A stretch of 64,000 nt of DNA from Chloroflexus sp. GTDB taxonomy: Bacteria; Chloroflexota; Anaerolineae; Anaerolineales; Villigracilaceae. Positions 57,932 through 64,000 of this stretch are shown here, piece by piece. Below the pieces are notes generated by a model. The model did no database searches, was not told where the DNA came from, and was given only the letters and a program-made list of their open reading frames with translations. The DNA lies in assembly GCA_020723995.1 (NCBI GenBank), contig DYHT01000003.1, positions 1 to 64,000 of the forward strand, in the 5' to 3' direction. The position numbers and the translations under genes were made by a program. Position 1 is the stretch's first letter. The number at the start of each line of letters is the position of its first letter.

Positions 57932-57971
57932 GGAATTCGCATGAAAGAGGGGGATGTGAAAAAGCCAAGAG

Positions 57972-58055
57972 TGGGGCGGGTGGGGGTCGAACCCACAAGA
58001 CCTCACGGCCGGTGGATTTTAAGTCCACTGCGTCTGCCAATTCCGCCACCGCCCC
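57972..58055 (-). tRNA. tRNA-Leu (anticodon TAA)
   Basis: The cloverleaf has a 7-bp acceptor (GGGGCGG/CCGCCCC), anticodon loop GACTTAAAATC, a long variable arm (GGCCGTGAGGTC) typical of class II, and T-arm GTGGGTTCGACCCCCAC. The 3' CCA is not encoded. Confidence 0.97.
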
Positions 58056-58884: not shown

Positions 58885-58914
58885 TTTACAATAGCTCATT
58901 TGTTCTAGTATAAT
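58885..58914 (+). promoter_or_regulatory. Promoter giving a leaderless mRNA
   Basis: TTTACA (58885-58890), 18 bases, TATAAT (58909-58914). The GTG start is at 58921, so transcription and translation should begin at about the same base. Confidence 0.72.
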
Positions 58915-58920
58915 GCGGGG

Positions 58921-59343
58921 GTGAACCGCTTGTGCAGTTTTTTTCTTTCCCTGGGCATTCAAATACCCAACGCAAGAACTATCGCGATTGATGGTAACTT
59001 GCTGCAATTGCTCCAGGGTTTAGCTGACAAAGAAGGGATTTCTCTTGAAGAAATTTCTTTGAAGCTGCTCAATCAAGCCATAAAGGACCACCATGTTAAT
59101 CAGGAACTCTGGCAGCGTTGGCTGTCATTGAGTGCACGCGAACAACAAGTAGCTGCTTTGCTTTGTCTTGGTTACACCAATCAGCAGATCGCCGGCCAAC
59201 TGATAATATCGCCCGAGACTGTAAAAACTCATGTCCGAAACACGTTGCATAAATTCAAAGTCAAGACCAGATACGATCTTAAACTAGCCCTGGCAAATTG
59301 GGATTTCAGCGGATGGGATCATCAGAGAAGCATAGAAACATAA
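58921..59343 (+). CDS. LuxR-type DNA-binding regulator
   Basis: The 140-residue protein ends in a LuxR/GerE helix-turn-helix (LSAREQQVAALLCLGYTNQQ then IAGQLIISPETVKTHVRNTL). The N-terminal 70 residues are a short helical part (IDGNLLQLLQGLADKEGISL), not a response-regulator receiver domain. It is separated from the radical SAM operon by a terminator, and may control that operon. Confidence 0.85.
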   Translation: MNRLCSFFLSLGIQIPNARTIAIDGNLLQLLQGLADKEGISLEEISLKLLNQAIKDHHVNQELWQRWLSLSAREQQVAALLCLGYTNQQIAGQLIISPETVKTHVRNTLHKFKVKTRYDLKLALANWDFSGWDHQRSIET

Positions 59344-59376
59344 TACAATGGGTTAACCCAAAACTAACCTGCATCC

Positions 59377-59398
59377 TCCCCCACGCGGGGGATTTTTT
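59377..59398 (+). terminator. Terminator after the LuxR-type gene
   Basis: TCCCCC-ACGC-GGGGGA followed by six T. Upstream, TGGGTTAACCCA (59349-59360) is a perfect palindrome that may be an operator. Confidence 0.9.
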
Positions 59399-59454
59399 AT
59401 TGTTATAAGAGTGGGGTTTGCCGCCTTTATTATCAAGTTGGGAACTGGTTCAGG

Positions 59455-60084
59455 ATGAAAATGAACACATCAGAATATATAAATATTGCGGCAATTTGCC
59501 CGGCGACGAGTGTATTAGGTCCGGGGATACGCGCCGCGGTTTGGGTACAAGGGTGTCCCTTCCATTGTCCTGGTTGTATCGCGCCGGATTGGATTCCCTT
59601 TCAACAAGCTCAACTGATGCGCCCTGATGAAGTGGTTGCAGAGCTTTTTTCCGCAAGCGAAATAGATGGAATTACATTTTCAGGAGGTGAACCAATGCTG
59701 CAGGCTGAAGGTCTAGCAAAGGTCGCTCAAGCAGCCCGCCAACGGAAAGATGTTGACATTATTTGCTTTACAGGATATCGCTACGAAGATTTGCTCAAAA
59801 AGCCCCCATCAGCAGGCGTCACTGATTTTTTGCATTATATAGATGTGCTCATTGAAGGTGCTTACATCTCCAAGCACAATAATGGCATCGGTCTGAGAGG
59901 CAGCCATAACCAACGAGTTATGCACTTATCGACTCGATTGAGGTACTACGACTTTGAAAATTGTCTGCGCCATGTAGAGTTGCATATACGAGACGGGGAA
60001 ATTCTAGTTGTCGGTATACCTCAGAAAGACATTGAAAATCCGATGCGTCTGTTATCCAAATCGCTTATCGAAGGGAAGGGATGA
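59455..60084 (+). CDS. NrdG-like radical SAM activating-enzyme homologue
   Basis: The 209-residue protein carries the radical SAM cluster CPFHCPGC (Cys34, 38, 41), the GGEP motif (77-80), the TGY block ICFTGYRYEDLL and the YIDVLIEGAYISKHNNGIGL then RGSHNQRV region found in NrdG. NrdG makes the glycyl radical on anaerobic ribonucleotide reductase. No NrdD or other glycyl-radical enzyme is in the window, and the next genes are unrelated. The partner is probably novel. The start may be ATG 59455 or 59461. Confidence 0.88.
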   Translation: MKMNTSEYINIAAICPATSVLGPGIRAAVWVQGCPFHCPGCIAPDWIPFQQAQLMRPDEVVAELFSASEIDGITFSGGEPMLQAEGLAKVAQAARQRKDVDIICFTGYRYEDLLKKPPSAGVTDFLHYIDVLIEGAYISKHNNGIGLRGSHNQRVMHLSTRLRYYDFENCLRHVELHIRDGEILVVGIPQKDIENPMRLLSKSLIEGKG

Positions 60085-60085
60085 T

Positions 60086-61492
60086 ATGAGTGGGCACAAA
60101 CACGCTACGATAACCATCAGCGAAGATGAGTATCGGAGATTGCAGGAAGCAGAAATGAAATTGCGCTCTGAACGAAAAGAACGTGCAGATCAAGCGATGA
60201 CGATGTACACGCATGATGTATTCACCAAAGCATACGCTAGTATGGAGCAACGGCAAGCGTTTTTCGAACAAGAGATTGCATCCTTGGATTCAGTTCTAAG
60301 CGACTTGGAAAGAGAAACAGCACATGCGCTCATAGCTCAACAGTCTGATCTCTATCTTGAATTCGCAGAAAAAATGAACAATTCAAGGGAAAACACAGCC
60401 CAGATGATTGATGAGATTGCTCAAGGGTTTCAGAATATGCTCGAAAAGCAACACCACCGTCACCAGAATCAGTTAAGCAATGTCAACCAGCAGCTCATAA
60501 ATATACGAATTGATCAACGACAGAAATACACGCTGGCAGAAAACTGGATTAATTACGCATATACGCTGCGAGAATTCATCGAGAATCAATATGACTACAA
60601 TCGCTTCGTCCCTGGTCAAACACAAAAGCTCGACAATGAACTGACTCAGGCCCGGGAAAACCTGGGACAAGGTATGTCAGAAGCTGCATTTATTGGCGCA
60701 CAACAGGTATATACCAGTCTTTCAGTCTTTCGGCTCGAGATCGAAAAGGTAATGAGCGAATGGCAGGTTCTATTTCATACCACTTATCGAAATGCCCGCA
60801 GGTTGGACATAATGGCAAAGGAAAATCGCGAGGTTCCGGCAATAGACACAGATGGAAATGAAATACCATTTCAGATAAAAATAATAGACTGGGCAGGACA
60901 GGAGTATTTGCTAATAACTCAGCAAATAAATGACATACTCAATAAATTAAGAAATGATGCCCATCAATTATCCATTCAAGACCTCAGGAACTACTTATAT
61001 GAGGTCCTTCCGAAATTAGAAAAGGATTTAGACAACATCATCTATCAATCTCGCTTGGAAGTTATTAACTCCCAAATCCGAATCAATATCGCCGATTTAG
61101 CCCTTCAGGCTTTAGAGAAGCAAGGGTTTGTCTTGGACCAATGCGGTTATATCAATAACGACCGGCGCAAGTCTTTTTTTGCCTCCGTCCGCAATATAGA
61201 AGGCAGTGAAGTGGTTATTTACGTTGATCCTGCCAGGGAAAACGTAAATAATATTGTAATAGACTCAAAAGATAGGATCCCCCGCACCGAACATGAGTTA
61301 AGGAAACGTTTCCAAGATATCGCTCAGACCTTACTCCAATATGGTTTACAAGTAGGTGCGATGCAAGTAGATTATATGCCCGAGACGGACCGGGTTTTCA
61401 AGCCAAATTCATACATTAAAGAAACTCAACCTCCGCGCTTATTGGATACGAATGATGATCGCAAGAATCAGACAACCCCTGAAACAAAATAG
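60086..61492 (+). CDS. Coiled-coil protein of unknown function in the radical SAM/AAA+ operon
   Basis: The 468-residue protein begins MSGHKHATITISEDEYRRLQ. Residues 20-180 are a long Gln/Glu-rich coiled coil (EIASLDSVLSDLERETAHAL, FQNMLEKQHHRHQNQLSNVN) and 220-340 are helical. A C-terminal alpha/beta domain (QALEKQGFVLDQCGYINNDR, EGSEVVIYVDPARENVNNIV, LLQYGLQVGAMQVDYMPETD) and a disordered tail follow. No glycyl-radical RVxGY motif, membrane segment or known family is seen. AAGGGAAGGG precedes the ATG, two bases after the radical SAM stop. Confidence 0.75.
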   Translation: MSGHKHATITISEDEYRRLQEAEMKLRSERKERADQAMTMYTHDVFTKAYASMEQRQAFFEQEIASLDSVLSDLERETAHALIAQQSDLYLEFAEKMNNSRENTAQMIDEIAQGFQNMLEKQHHRHQNQLSNVNQQLINIRIDQRQKYTLAENWINYAYTLREFIENQYDYNRFVPGQTQKLDNELTQARENLGQGMSEAAFIGAQQVYTSLSVFRLEIEKVMSEWQVLFHTTYRNARRLDIMAKENREVPAIDTDGNEIPFQIKIIDWAGQEYLLITQQINDILNKLRNDAHQLSIQDLRNYLYEVLPKLEKDLDNIIYQSRLEVINSQIRINIADLALQALEKQGFVLDQCGYINNDRRKSFFASVRNIEGSEVVIYVDPARENVNNIVIDSKDRIPRTEHELRKRFQDIAQTLLQYGLQVGAMQVDYMPETDRVFKPNSYIKETQPPRLLDTNDDRKNQTTPETK

Positions 61493-64000
61493 AGGCAAGC
61501 GTTTTTTCATCCTTTATGGTGCTGGAATAGAGGATTTGTTTTTCACCTCATCTCATTCTAATAACTTTGAATTGACTATCGAGAACGTCCTTCTGGAAGA
61601 ACTGAAGGATGAGGGTTTTGAACGTGTCATTTTTACATCACCTCATCGTTCAATTTTTTTCTTGGACAACGAATCGGAGAAACTATCCTGGCCTAGAAAT
61701 AATGCAATGCGTCCAATTGATCATTCAAAAAACCAAATGCAATATTTGGATAACGGCCCACTGGCTACCATGTTGTTGTTCAAACCAGCCGTCAGAGTAA
61801 CCTCACAGACACCGCTTGAAAGCATGGGTGACGTTGTAGCTATCAGATTTTTAGATGCGATCATGAAAGATGAAACGATAAAATCCGCGGTAATCTTCCT
61901 TCAAGCTGAGAGCTCACTAAATTCATTCGAGTCTCCGAGAATTCTCTCGGGTCTTATCGGCGAATGGGCACGTTTACCCTCGAATAATAAAAATACTTGT
62001 TTTTTACTCTTCGCAGCCGGGAACCATGACCAACTGACGAAGATAGCAAATAGCTTGTCTGTGCCAGAACTTAGGAACTCGATACTGGATAAAAGTGATA
62101 AAGGTGGTAATCACGCTATAATCCAAATTGGAAGCCCGGAATATGAAGAGATTTTATGCCTAATAAATTACGTCCAGAAAACAACCGTAATCCAGGTTAA
62201 TCCTGATGATATCAATAAAATCAGTCATTGGATGGTCGCTGAAGGCATTAGTGCCCGCCAGTGGATTGACAGGTTTAGGTCCATCCAAAACCTAGATTTG
62301 CAGACCTTCCGTAAACAGCGTTGGAGCAAGGCATTCCAGGATGGAGAAATAAGCGGCGAAGAACGGCTAAATTCCCTGATTGGACTGCATGAGATAAAGA
62401 ACCGCATCCATGAATTAACTGCCTGGTTGTTAGTTTCATCTGAAAGAAAAACCAATCCCCAAACCTACCACCCCACCATGCACATGATCTTTACGGGAAA
62501 TCCGGGAACAGGCAAGACTACGGTGGCGCGTATTATCGGGGAAATTTTTCATGACATCGGTTTATTACGGAAAGGTCACCTGGTTGAAGCCAAAGGCAGC
62601 GATCTTGTCGCTGACCATGTTGGTGGAACTGCTATAAAAACAGATAATCTTATAAACCAAGCGATTGATGGTGTTCTCTTTATAGACGAGGCGTATGTTC
62701 TGACCGAAACTGAACGCGGCGGTTTCGGTCAGGAAGCTGTGGATACACTTCTTTCATACCTGGAAAACTACCGGGGAAAATTAGTCATTATCTTGGCGGG
62801 TTATCCAGAAAGAATGAGGCGTTTCATTCATTCGAATCCTGGATTAGCGCGGCGTTTCCCGGAAGATAACATTTTTCATTTTCCCGATTACACAACCCAG
62901 GAATTATGGGTGATCCTGGATCATATATTGCGAGAGATGGGTTTAACGTACACATCTGAAACTGAAGAGGCTTTGAAGAAAGTAATTGGTCGTCTGCATA
63001 TACTTCGCGATGAATCTTTCGGTAATGCCGGCGAAATGCGCAACCTGGCTGAGACATTGGACCGCCGCAGGGCAGCTCGGATCAAGCAAAAAGGAGAATC
63101 CTTCGACACACCTCTTTGCGCGGAAGATATTCCCGATAAATATTGTCACTTTCTCACCCAGGCAGTTCCTGGCCCGGAAATAATATTGAGTGAAATGAAT
63201 AACCTGGTTGGTTTGAAGAATGTAAAGGAAAACCTTCGAAATTTAGTTATTCGCGCCCAGTACGAAAATCTACGTGTTAAAGTGGATTCGAATTACACCA
63301 CAAACACGGGACTACAGCACATGGTTTTTGAGGGCAACCCAGGTACAGGAAAGACCACAGTTGCTCGATTGCTGGGGAAAATCTATCATTCGTTAGGTTT
63401 ATTGAGAAAAGGACATCTCGTGGAGGTCAGCCGGTCTGACCTGGTTGCCGGTCACGTGGGACAAACTGCTTTAAAAACCAAAGAAAAGATCAAGGAGGCG
63501 CTGGATGGGATTTTATTCGTAGACGAGGCTTATTCGCTTAACCAAGCAACGGGTAACGATTTTGGACATGAGGCAATTGACACCCTGGTTAAATCCATGG
63601 AAGATTATCGGCATAGATTAGTGGTTGTAGTCGCCGGTTATCCACGGCAAATGGCCGAGTTTATTGCCAGCAATCCGGGTTTGAGCTCCCGATTCGCAGT
63701 TATAATACATTTCCCTGATTTCAGCGCTCGTGAATTAATGGAAATTCTTATTAATCTGGCTCGAAGTGAAAAATATAGCTTAACCCCTCAAGTTCTTGAA
63801 GAAGCTTACCGATATCTTGAATTTACCTGGCAGGCACAAGACAATTATGGTAATGCACGTGCTGTGCGCAACTTATTTGATGGGATGAAGGCAGCACTAG
63901 CTGCAAGAATAATGAATAGAATAATGCGTGAAGGAAATGGTGCGCTTGACCCCGGTGAGATGGTTCGTTTTACGACAGGCGATATTCCTAGGCCAGCCTT
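61452..64000 (+). CDS. Tandem CbxX/CfqX-type AAA+ protein (3' end beyond window)
   Basis: At least 849 codons are open. ATG 61452 overlaps the coiled-coil gene by 41 bp. Residues 1-280 look like a degenerate P-loop domain: FFILYGAGIEDLFF where Walker A would be, SAVIFLQAES like Walker B, FLLFAAGN like sensor 1. Two CbxX-type AAA+ modules follow. Module 1 has Walker A GNPGTGKTT (349-357) and Walker B GVLFIDEAY (407-415). Module 2 has GNPGTGKTT (628-636) and GILFVDEAY (686-694). Relatives remodel enzymes (rubisco activase CbbX) or serve secretion (EccA). It probably remodels a partner in this operon. Confidence 0.88.
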   Translation, partial: MMIARIRQPLKQNRGKRFFILYGAGIEDLFFTSSHSNNFELTIENVLLEELKDEGFERVIFTSPHRSIFFLDNESEKLSWPRNNAMRPIDHSKNQMQYLDNGPLATMLLFKPAVRVTSQTPLESMGDVVAIRFLDAIMKDETIKSAVIFLQAESSLNSFESPRILSGLIGEWARLPSNNKNTCFLLFAAGNHDQLTKIANSLSVPELRNSILDKSDKGGNHAIIQIGSPEYEEILCLINYVQKTTVIQVNPDDINKISHWMVAEGISARQWIDRFRSIQNLDLQTFRKQRWSKAFQDGEISGEERLNSLIGLHEIKNRIHELTAWLLVSSERKTNPQTYHPTMHMIFTGNPGTGKTTVARIIGEIFHDIGLLRKGHLVEAKGSDLVADHVGGTAIKTDNLINQAIDGVLFIDEAYVLTETERGGFGQEAVDTLLSYLENYRGKLVIILAGYPERMRRFIHSNPGLARRFPEDNIFHFPDYTTQELWVILDHILREMGLTYTSETEEALKKVIGRLHILRDESFGNAGEMRNLAETLDRRRAARIKQKGESFDTPLCAEDIPDKYCHFLTQAVPGPEIILSEMNNLVGLKNVKENLRNLVIRAQYENLRVKVDSNYTTNTGLQHMVFEGNPGTGKTTVARLLGKIYHSLGLLRKGHLVEVSRSDLVAGHVGQTALKTKEKIKEALDGILFVDEAYSLNQATGNDFGHEAIDTLVKSMEDYRHRLVVVVAGYPRQMAEFIASNPGLSSRFAVIIHFPDFSARELMEILINLARSEKYSLTPQVLEEAYRYLEFTWQAQDNYGNARAVRNLFDGMKAALAARIMNRIMREGNGALDPGEMVRFTTGDIPRPA

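Follow-up and report, generated by a model that had tools for sequence, protein, structure and literature searches.

Proteins of the Hsp70, zinc-ribbon, DO-GTPase, GAP1-N2, vWA and DUF4407 types have been described as parts of nucleoside triphosphate (NTP)-dependent conflict systems of multicellular bacteria (Kaur et al. 2020, PMC7159879). The main text of that paper, as distinct from its supplements, mentions a radical SAM domain only in FtsH ternary systems. Among individual proteins, the described counterparts of the genes treated here are NrdG, the activase of anaerobic ribonucleotide reductase, and the CbxX-type AAA+ proteins CbbX (the red-type rubisco activase) and EccA (ESX). The locus under study lies at the end of a 64,000-nucleotide stretch of Chloroflexus sp. 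DNA (the window), where genes for an NrdG-like radical SAM protein, a coiled-coil protein and an AAA+ protein (together, the trio) follow one another on the forward strand. The trio is not described in the main text cited above, and a literature search whose coverage left out supplements and most subscription papers found no description of it, in keeping with an earlier note on this DNA that had regarded it as the strongest candidate there for an undescribed system.

The three genes form a conserved unit across very different, often filamentous bacteria of four phyla. In an unbiased test, an alignment of the radical SAM protein was the sole bait against 84,980 named genomes, and the best 80 relatives, which were taken, fall in Chloroflexota, Actinomycetota, Cyanobacteriota and Saprospiraceae. 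The coiled-coil gene lies on the same strand, no more than 2.6 kb downstream, in 65 of the 75 loci that have at least 1.5 kb of downstream DNA (within 600 bp in 60), and both the coiled-coil and the AAA+ gene are present in 62 of the 70 loci that offer 4 kb or more; these belong to Chloroflexota, Actinomycetota and Bacteroidota, and numerous similar Streptomyces weigh on the conservation seen within actinomycetes. The order radical SAM, coiled-coil, AAA+ is kept in relatives of the same family and the same order despite differing genomic settings. Among 251 genomes of the window's order, the coiled-coil protein occurs in ten, and the radical SAM protein scores above 225 bits in exactly those ten, the next score being 167 bits (the 225-bit line was set after this gap was seen). 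Thus, the trio is sporadic (about 4% of the order's genomes) and co-inherited, and chance adjacency is rejected by the conserved linkage in the bait test and by the matching ten genomes. The earlier note had already taken the three genes for one unit, to be abandoned if relatives of the radical SAM gene always stood next to nrdD or if its partners were not conserved beside it; both possibilities were examined and neither held. The exceptions to the linkage are mostly cyanobacteria, in which the radical SAM gene is preceded by Hsp70 and a coiled-coil gene.

The features of the trio in the window are as follows:

59455..60084, forward strand: NrdG-like radical SAM protein, 209 amino acids (CX3CX2C at residues 34-41, GGEP, NrdG-type RGSxNQ)
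60086..61492, forward strand: coiled-coil protein of no known family, 468 amino acids (N-terminal strand, long helices, C-terminal alpha/beta domain at about residues 320-420)
60086..60100, forward strand: MSGxK N-terminus of the coiled-coil protein (MSGHK here), candidate target for recognition or modification by the radical SAM protein
61452..64000 in the window, forward strand: triple-module AAA+ protein, 878 amino acids (its end, contig position 64088, is 88 bp past the window)
61452..62321, forward strand: N-terminal alpha/beta domain of the AAA+ protein (residues 1-290), without Walker motifs
62334..63152, forward strand: first intact CbxX-type AAA+ module (residues 295-567; Walker A GNPGTGKT, Walker B FIDEA)
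63162..63998, forward strand: second intact CbxX-type AAA+ module (residues 571-849; closest solved structure CbbX)

The tight operon, the spacing and the two CbxX modules reported in the earlier note are borne out by the open reading frames (ORFs): the ATG of the coiled-coil gene at 60086 is one base past the radical SAM stop codon, and the AAA+ ORF, starting at 61452, overlaps the coiled-coil ORF by 41 bp. The extension beyond 64000 that the note had asked for was possible since the contig DNA runs on to 87,520 bp, and it allowed the AAA+ ORF to be read to its end. The next gene encodes a membrane protein (judged by eye) and is convergent, so that the operon consists of exactly three genes; homologues of triosephosphate isomerase, PGK and GAPDH (also by eye) lie beyond it. 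The window thus carries the stand-alone three-gene form.

The radical SAM protein matches Fer4_12 with E 4.4e-33. NrdG is its best-scoring named model, at 108.7 bits against a cut-off of 126.1 for the NrdG equivalog model, and its best matches are of the NrdG and PFL-activase types. Judged by the motif Cys34-X3-Cys38-X2-Cys41 and by GGEP, both invariant across 25 relatives, it belongs to the glycyl-radical-activase branch of the radical SAM superfamily. The fold family and the CX3CX2C motif are shared with NrdG, and we take the C-terminal RGSxNQ motif to be a further NrdG-like feature. The two differ in linkage and descent. NrdD occurs in none of the 80 related radical SAM loci and was not found in the window genome; the genome assemblies are incomplete (85% for the window genome), and negatives on them are to be read with this in mind. 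The absence of an NrdD client noted earlier is upheld. Of 13 trio genomes one has NrdD, and in that genome the NrdD gene is immediately followed by an activase match of its own. In the tree, viral NrdD-linked NrdG proteins form their own clade (support 100/99), and the trio proteins cluster with cyanobacterial Hsp70-associated proteins, mini-locus proteins (see below) and one TerD-linked protein at 91/92, a moderate support just below the tree program's starred level. Identity as an ordinary NrdG was accordingly rejected, on the score below the cut-off, the loci without NrdD and the separate clade. That an ordinary NrdG activase merely stands beside an unrelated CbxX gene by chance is hardly credible: NrdG is indeed the top-scoring named model, but the same three observations and the cross-phylum linkage speak against chance, and the linkage data refute it.

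A small-molecule product of the radical SAM protein, such as a viperin-like modified nucleotide, with the other two proteins in control of it, would draw on the matches to prokaryotic viperin models (E around 3e-4). However, these matches are weak (E 2.5e-4 and 3.7e-4, 18 bits) and are what shared radical SAM ancestry gives, whereas the best matches, to the NrdG and PFL-activase types, are to enzymes that act on proteins. We therefore regard a small-molecule product as very improbable, and identity as a prokaryotic viperin was rejected. PADLOC models gave no system-specific defence match for the proteins of the locus, only generic AAA and helix-turn-helix (HTH) matches.

The AAA+ protein consists of two intact CbxX/SpoVK modules following an N-terminal domain of about 290 residues. 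The SpoVK, CbbX and EccA models each align to two stretches, AAA_lid_6 is matched twice, and the Walker motifs are invariant in relatives; with Walker A, Walker B and lid intact in two modules, the sequence places the protein in the CbxX/CfqX AAA+ family. The second module superimposes on the CbbX structure with Z 28.4 (root mean square deviation 4.2 over 269 residues, 41% identity), and the module pair aligns structurally to double rings of the p97/Cdc48 type. The trio protein thus shares its motor modules with CbbX and EccA but differs from both in carrying two of them, together with an extra N-terminal domain, in one chain. The alpha/beta domain made up of the first 290 residues is conserved; a profile comparison with the intact modules gave no significant indication that it is a decayed AAA module, and the list of structural matches barely covers that part. 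No rubisco or ESX genes were seen by eye among the flanking ORFs, and rubisco was not searched genome-wide.

The coiled-coil protein has no match in Pfam, NCBIfam or PADLOC. Its predicted structure (mean predicted local distance difference test score 77) begins with a short strand at the N-terminus, continues in long helices and closes with a C-terminal alpha/beta domain; Foldseek returned no match to it at E <= 0.001, and a PDB sequence search found generic helices only. No glycyl-radical motif was noticed by eye. The family diverges fast, with a mean column identity of 35% over 42 rows from four phyla. The C-terminal alpha/beta domain is conserved, and the strongest conservation is at the N-terminus, where M1, S2 and K5 are invariant and G3 near-invariant across the 42 proteins. 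A hidden Markov model (HMM) of the first 36 residues, run against 8,453 ORFs, recovered 73 coiled-coil proteins; just two other proteins scored below E = 1 (E 7e-9 and 0.023). These two are proteins of 165 and 166 amino acids encoded in a mini-locus on a mobile element, where a trio-clade radical SAM gene stands by itself and the gene for the small protein comes no more than 15 bp after it (L158:8149-9356 in genome G073, contig C38, and L159:187-1380 on a viral contig). The small protein resembles the coiled-coil protein in the N-terminal segment only (BLASTP, 50% over 36 residues, E 6e-7 in a single comparison); the two copies are near-identical after about residue 23 and differ before it. 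No CbxX gene was seen adjoining the lone radical SAM gene. The simplest reading of these sequences suggests that the N-terminal MSGxK segment is recognised, and perhaps modified, by the radical SAM enzyme. The earlier proposal that the enzyme modifies the coiled-coil protein thus goes as far as a suggestion, made by the invariant N-terminus and its portable segment.

An alternative that keeps the same machine is that the substrate comes from outside: a foreign or damaged protein would be captured by the coiled-coil protein, unfolded by the AAA+ protein and modified by the enzyme, with MSGxK only docking the enzyme. The conserved trio is consistent with this, the C-terminal alpha/beta domain and long helices of the coiled-coil protein could bind clients, and the Hsp70-like partners of relatives suggest client handling. 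However, the conservation of the coiled-coil protein peaks at its N-terminus and not at a client-binding surface, and we consider an outside substrate a serious contender that is nonetheless on the unlikely side.

In other lineages, the trio is part of larger operons. A Saprospiraceae locus (L108) contains DUF4407, two unknown genes, a pair of DO-GTPase-like genes, of which one exceeds the Pfam cut-off, and GAP1-N2, followed by the trio; GAP1-N2 (PF20013) was matched there and in L150. A Calothrix plasmid carries dynamin-like, Hsp70, TPR, radical SAM, coiled-coil, AAA+ and zinc-ribbon genes, with DO-GTPase genes nearby. In Chloroflexales, DO-GTPase-like and GAP1-N2 genes lie upstream and Hsp70 immediately precedes the trio, and in two of these genomes the AAA+ protein is extended at its C-terminus by a stretch that reads by eye as trypsin-like. 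Within the window's order, one locus (L120, G525:C11:33000-52000) shows the long form complete, as a co-oriented series of actin/Hsp70-like, coiled-coil, trio, zinc-ribbon and DO-GTPase-like genes and a gene for an 874-amino-acid protein; the DO-GTPase-like match there, at 1.6e-4, is under the cut-off. Actinomadura-type operons contain DUF4407, the trio, a zinc-ribbon protein, a DO-GTPase-like gene and a gene termed c4, and Streptomyces-type operons contain zinc-ribbon, DO-GTPase-like (4.7e-5, below the cut-off), c4, actin/Hsp70-like (by eye) and vWA genes, then the trio. Neither Pfam nor profile comparison supports the actinomycete c4 as GAP1-N2, and no FNIII gene was identified. In a Saprospiraceae genome, the trio thus stands in the same operon as GAP1-N2 and DO-GTPase genes, and in Chloroflexales, Calothrix and actinomycetes it lies near them (with weak DO-GTPase scores in the last); both kinds of system are largely found in filamentous or multicellular taxa, and the HSP70, zinc-ribbon and vWA parts recur in both. 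They differ in that the section on GAP1-N2-type systems in the main text of PMC7159879 is without the radical SAM, coiled-coil and CbxX trio. The "lack of known partners" claimed in the earlier note therefore went too far, since Hsp70-like, GTPase, GAP1 and vWA proteins accompany the trio in relatives.

Some of these neighbours invite another explanation, in which the trio remodels a coiled-coil membrane scaffold and serves the assembly or repair of the envelope or a membrane complex and not immunity. DUF4407 and vWA genes adjoin the trio in actinomycetes, and in many Anaerolineae (L097:12570-16473 and similar loci) a TPR gene and two genes for membrane proteins, one of them SPFH/Band-7-like, are convergent with it downstream. 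However, the SPFH-like family is unspecific, being present in 92 of the 251 genomes versus 10 with the trio, on which ground it was rejected as a part of the system, and no such genes stand beside the window trio. An envelope function is, in our judgement, distinctly unlikely.

Our preferred reading, held tentatively and at less than an even chance, is that the trio is the core of a protein-remodelling machine with its own radical chemistry, working as a switch directed at an N-terminus. The coiled-coil protein would form an elongated oligomer or sensor scaffold, which the AAA+ motor, by analogy with CbbX acting on rubisco and in view of the gene order, may engage and remodel. Remodelling would expose or position the coiled-coil N-terminus, where the radical SAM enzyme would abstract a hydrogen atom, and the resulting radical-derived modification would switch the assembly. 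In other lineages, the switch may be coupled to partners of the Hsp70-like, zinc-ribbon, DO-GTPase/GAP1, vWA, DUF4407 or trypsin-like kind, and its likely role would accordingly be a gated response to stress or invasion. From the partners and the phyletic pattern, the output is probably defence against invaders or stress. The reading in full, that of an undescribed multi-phylum system in which an NrdG-related activase, with a double-ring AAA+ remodeller as its gate, leaves a radical or radical-derived change on the MSGxK N-terminus of a coiled-coil switch protein, as a shared stress or anti-invader core in filamentous bacteria, we put forward as doubtful.

Several observations weigh against the preferred reading. 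G3 of MSGxK is not strictly invariant, the two near-identical copies of the small MSGxK protein amount to a single lineage in effect, and one of them scores only E = 0.023. Alternatively, the AAA+ motor could use the MSGxK segment as a handle, though no motor is seen in the mini-locus. Several cyanobacteria pair the radical SAM gene with Hsp70, the coiled-coil/AAA+ pair being elsewhere or unseen, and one Chloroflexota genome (L157, L118) has the radical SAM and AAA+ genes adjacent and the coiled-coil gene elsewhere. In addition, the window genome has no match for DO-GTPase (PF19993 search) or GAP1-N2 (PF20013 search), and for this reason the window trio is not assigned to the GAP1-N2-type DO-GTPase systems and a conflict role can be given to it by analogy only. 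Thus, the earlier suggestion of a stress, conflict or modification system gains from the neighbours in other lineages and receives no support from the window itself.

A conserved virus-borne system was rejected, since the coiled-coil protein had no match in phage records and its alignment found nothing in a scan of viral contigs; its matches did include the one Calothrix plasmid. The radical SAM scan of viral contigs found one mini-locus and one divergent TerD-linked locus. In a contig filed as viral (L175:3086-10574), TerD-type genes are followed by a divergent radical SAM gene, by genes for two coiled-coil proteins that match the family weakly and by an incomplete AAA+ gene; this locus may be a further branch. 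In genome G039 (L010:12023-14898), ORFs resembling contractile-tail sheath and tube genes (by eye) lie a few kb from the trio.

Radical SAM genes also occur beside AAA+/DUF1257/DUF2997/Hsp70 clusters. These resemble the trio in having an NrdG-like radical SAM gene next to an AAA+ gene, sometimes with Hsp70, but their AAA+ protein is of another type, this coiled-coil family is lacking, and they fall outside the trio clade. NrdD-free examples, with an NrdG-like radical SAM, DUF1257/DUF2997-type and AAA+ genes, are L155 (G302:C12) and L156 (G617:C163), which include Hsp70, and the plasmids L240 and L244; they represent a second pairing of radical SAM with AAA+. The clusters compared with the trio are L155, L156 and those on Paenibacillus and Rhodococcus plasmids. 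On plasmids L241, L242 and L243, an NrdG-like radical SAM gene directly follows an AAA+ ATPase gene; in L241 and L242 the pair is downstream of PIN-domain and large AAA-domain genes, and the L242 AAA+ protein matches the PADLOC candidates PDC-M37B and DolB.

Upstream of the trio in the window are two further features:

58921..59343, forward strand: LuxR-type HTH protein, short, 140 amino acids (from the ORF list and a family match), probably a separate transcription unit
59377..59400, forward strand: intrinsic-terminator-like hairpin (59377-59392) plus T-tract, between the LuxR-type gene and the trio

The LuxR-type regulator of the earlier note is thus a real ORF, but because of the terminator-like hairpin it is treated as a neighbour outside the operon. 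The promoter-like -35/-10 pair at position 58885 precedes the LuxR gene and not the trio. Among the loci examined, a LuxR-type gene beside the trio was met elsewhere only in the sister genome G002, which has a comparable hairpin at the equivalent place. Farther upstream, a tRNA-Leu (taa) gene lies at 57971-58055 on the reverse strand, between a polyprenyl-synthase-like gene and a PHP-domain gene.

If the proposed mechanism is true, an NrdG-type radical enzyme would gain a job outside nucleotide reduction, and a single module, recurrent in four phyla, would combine radical chemistry with AAA+ remodelling. The conflict systems of multicellular bacteria that are gated by chaperones and GTPases would also acquire an unreported core module, with the MSGxK N-terminus as a concrete, testable site.

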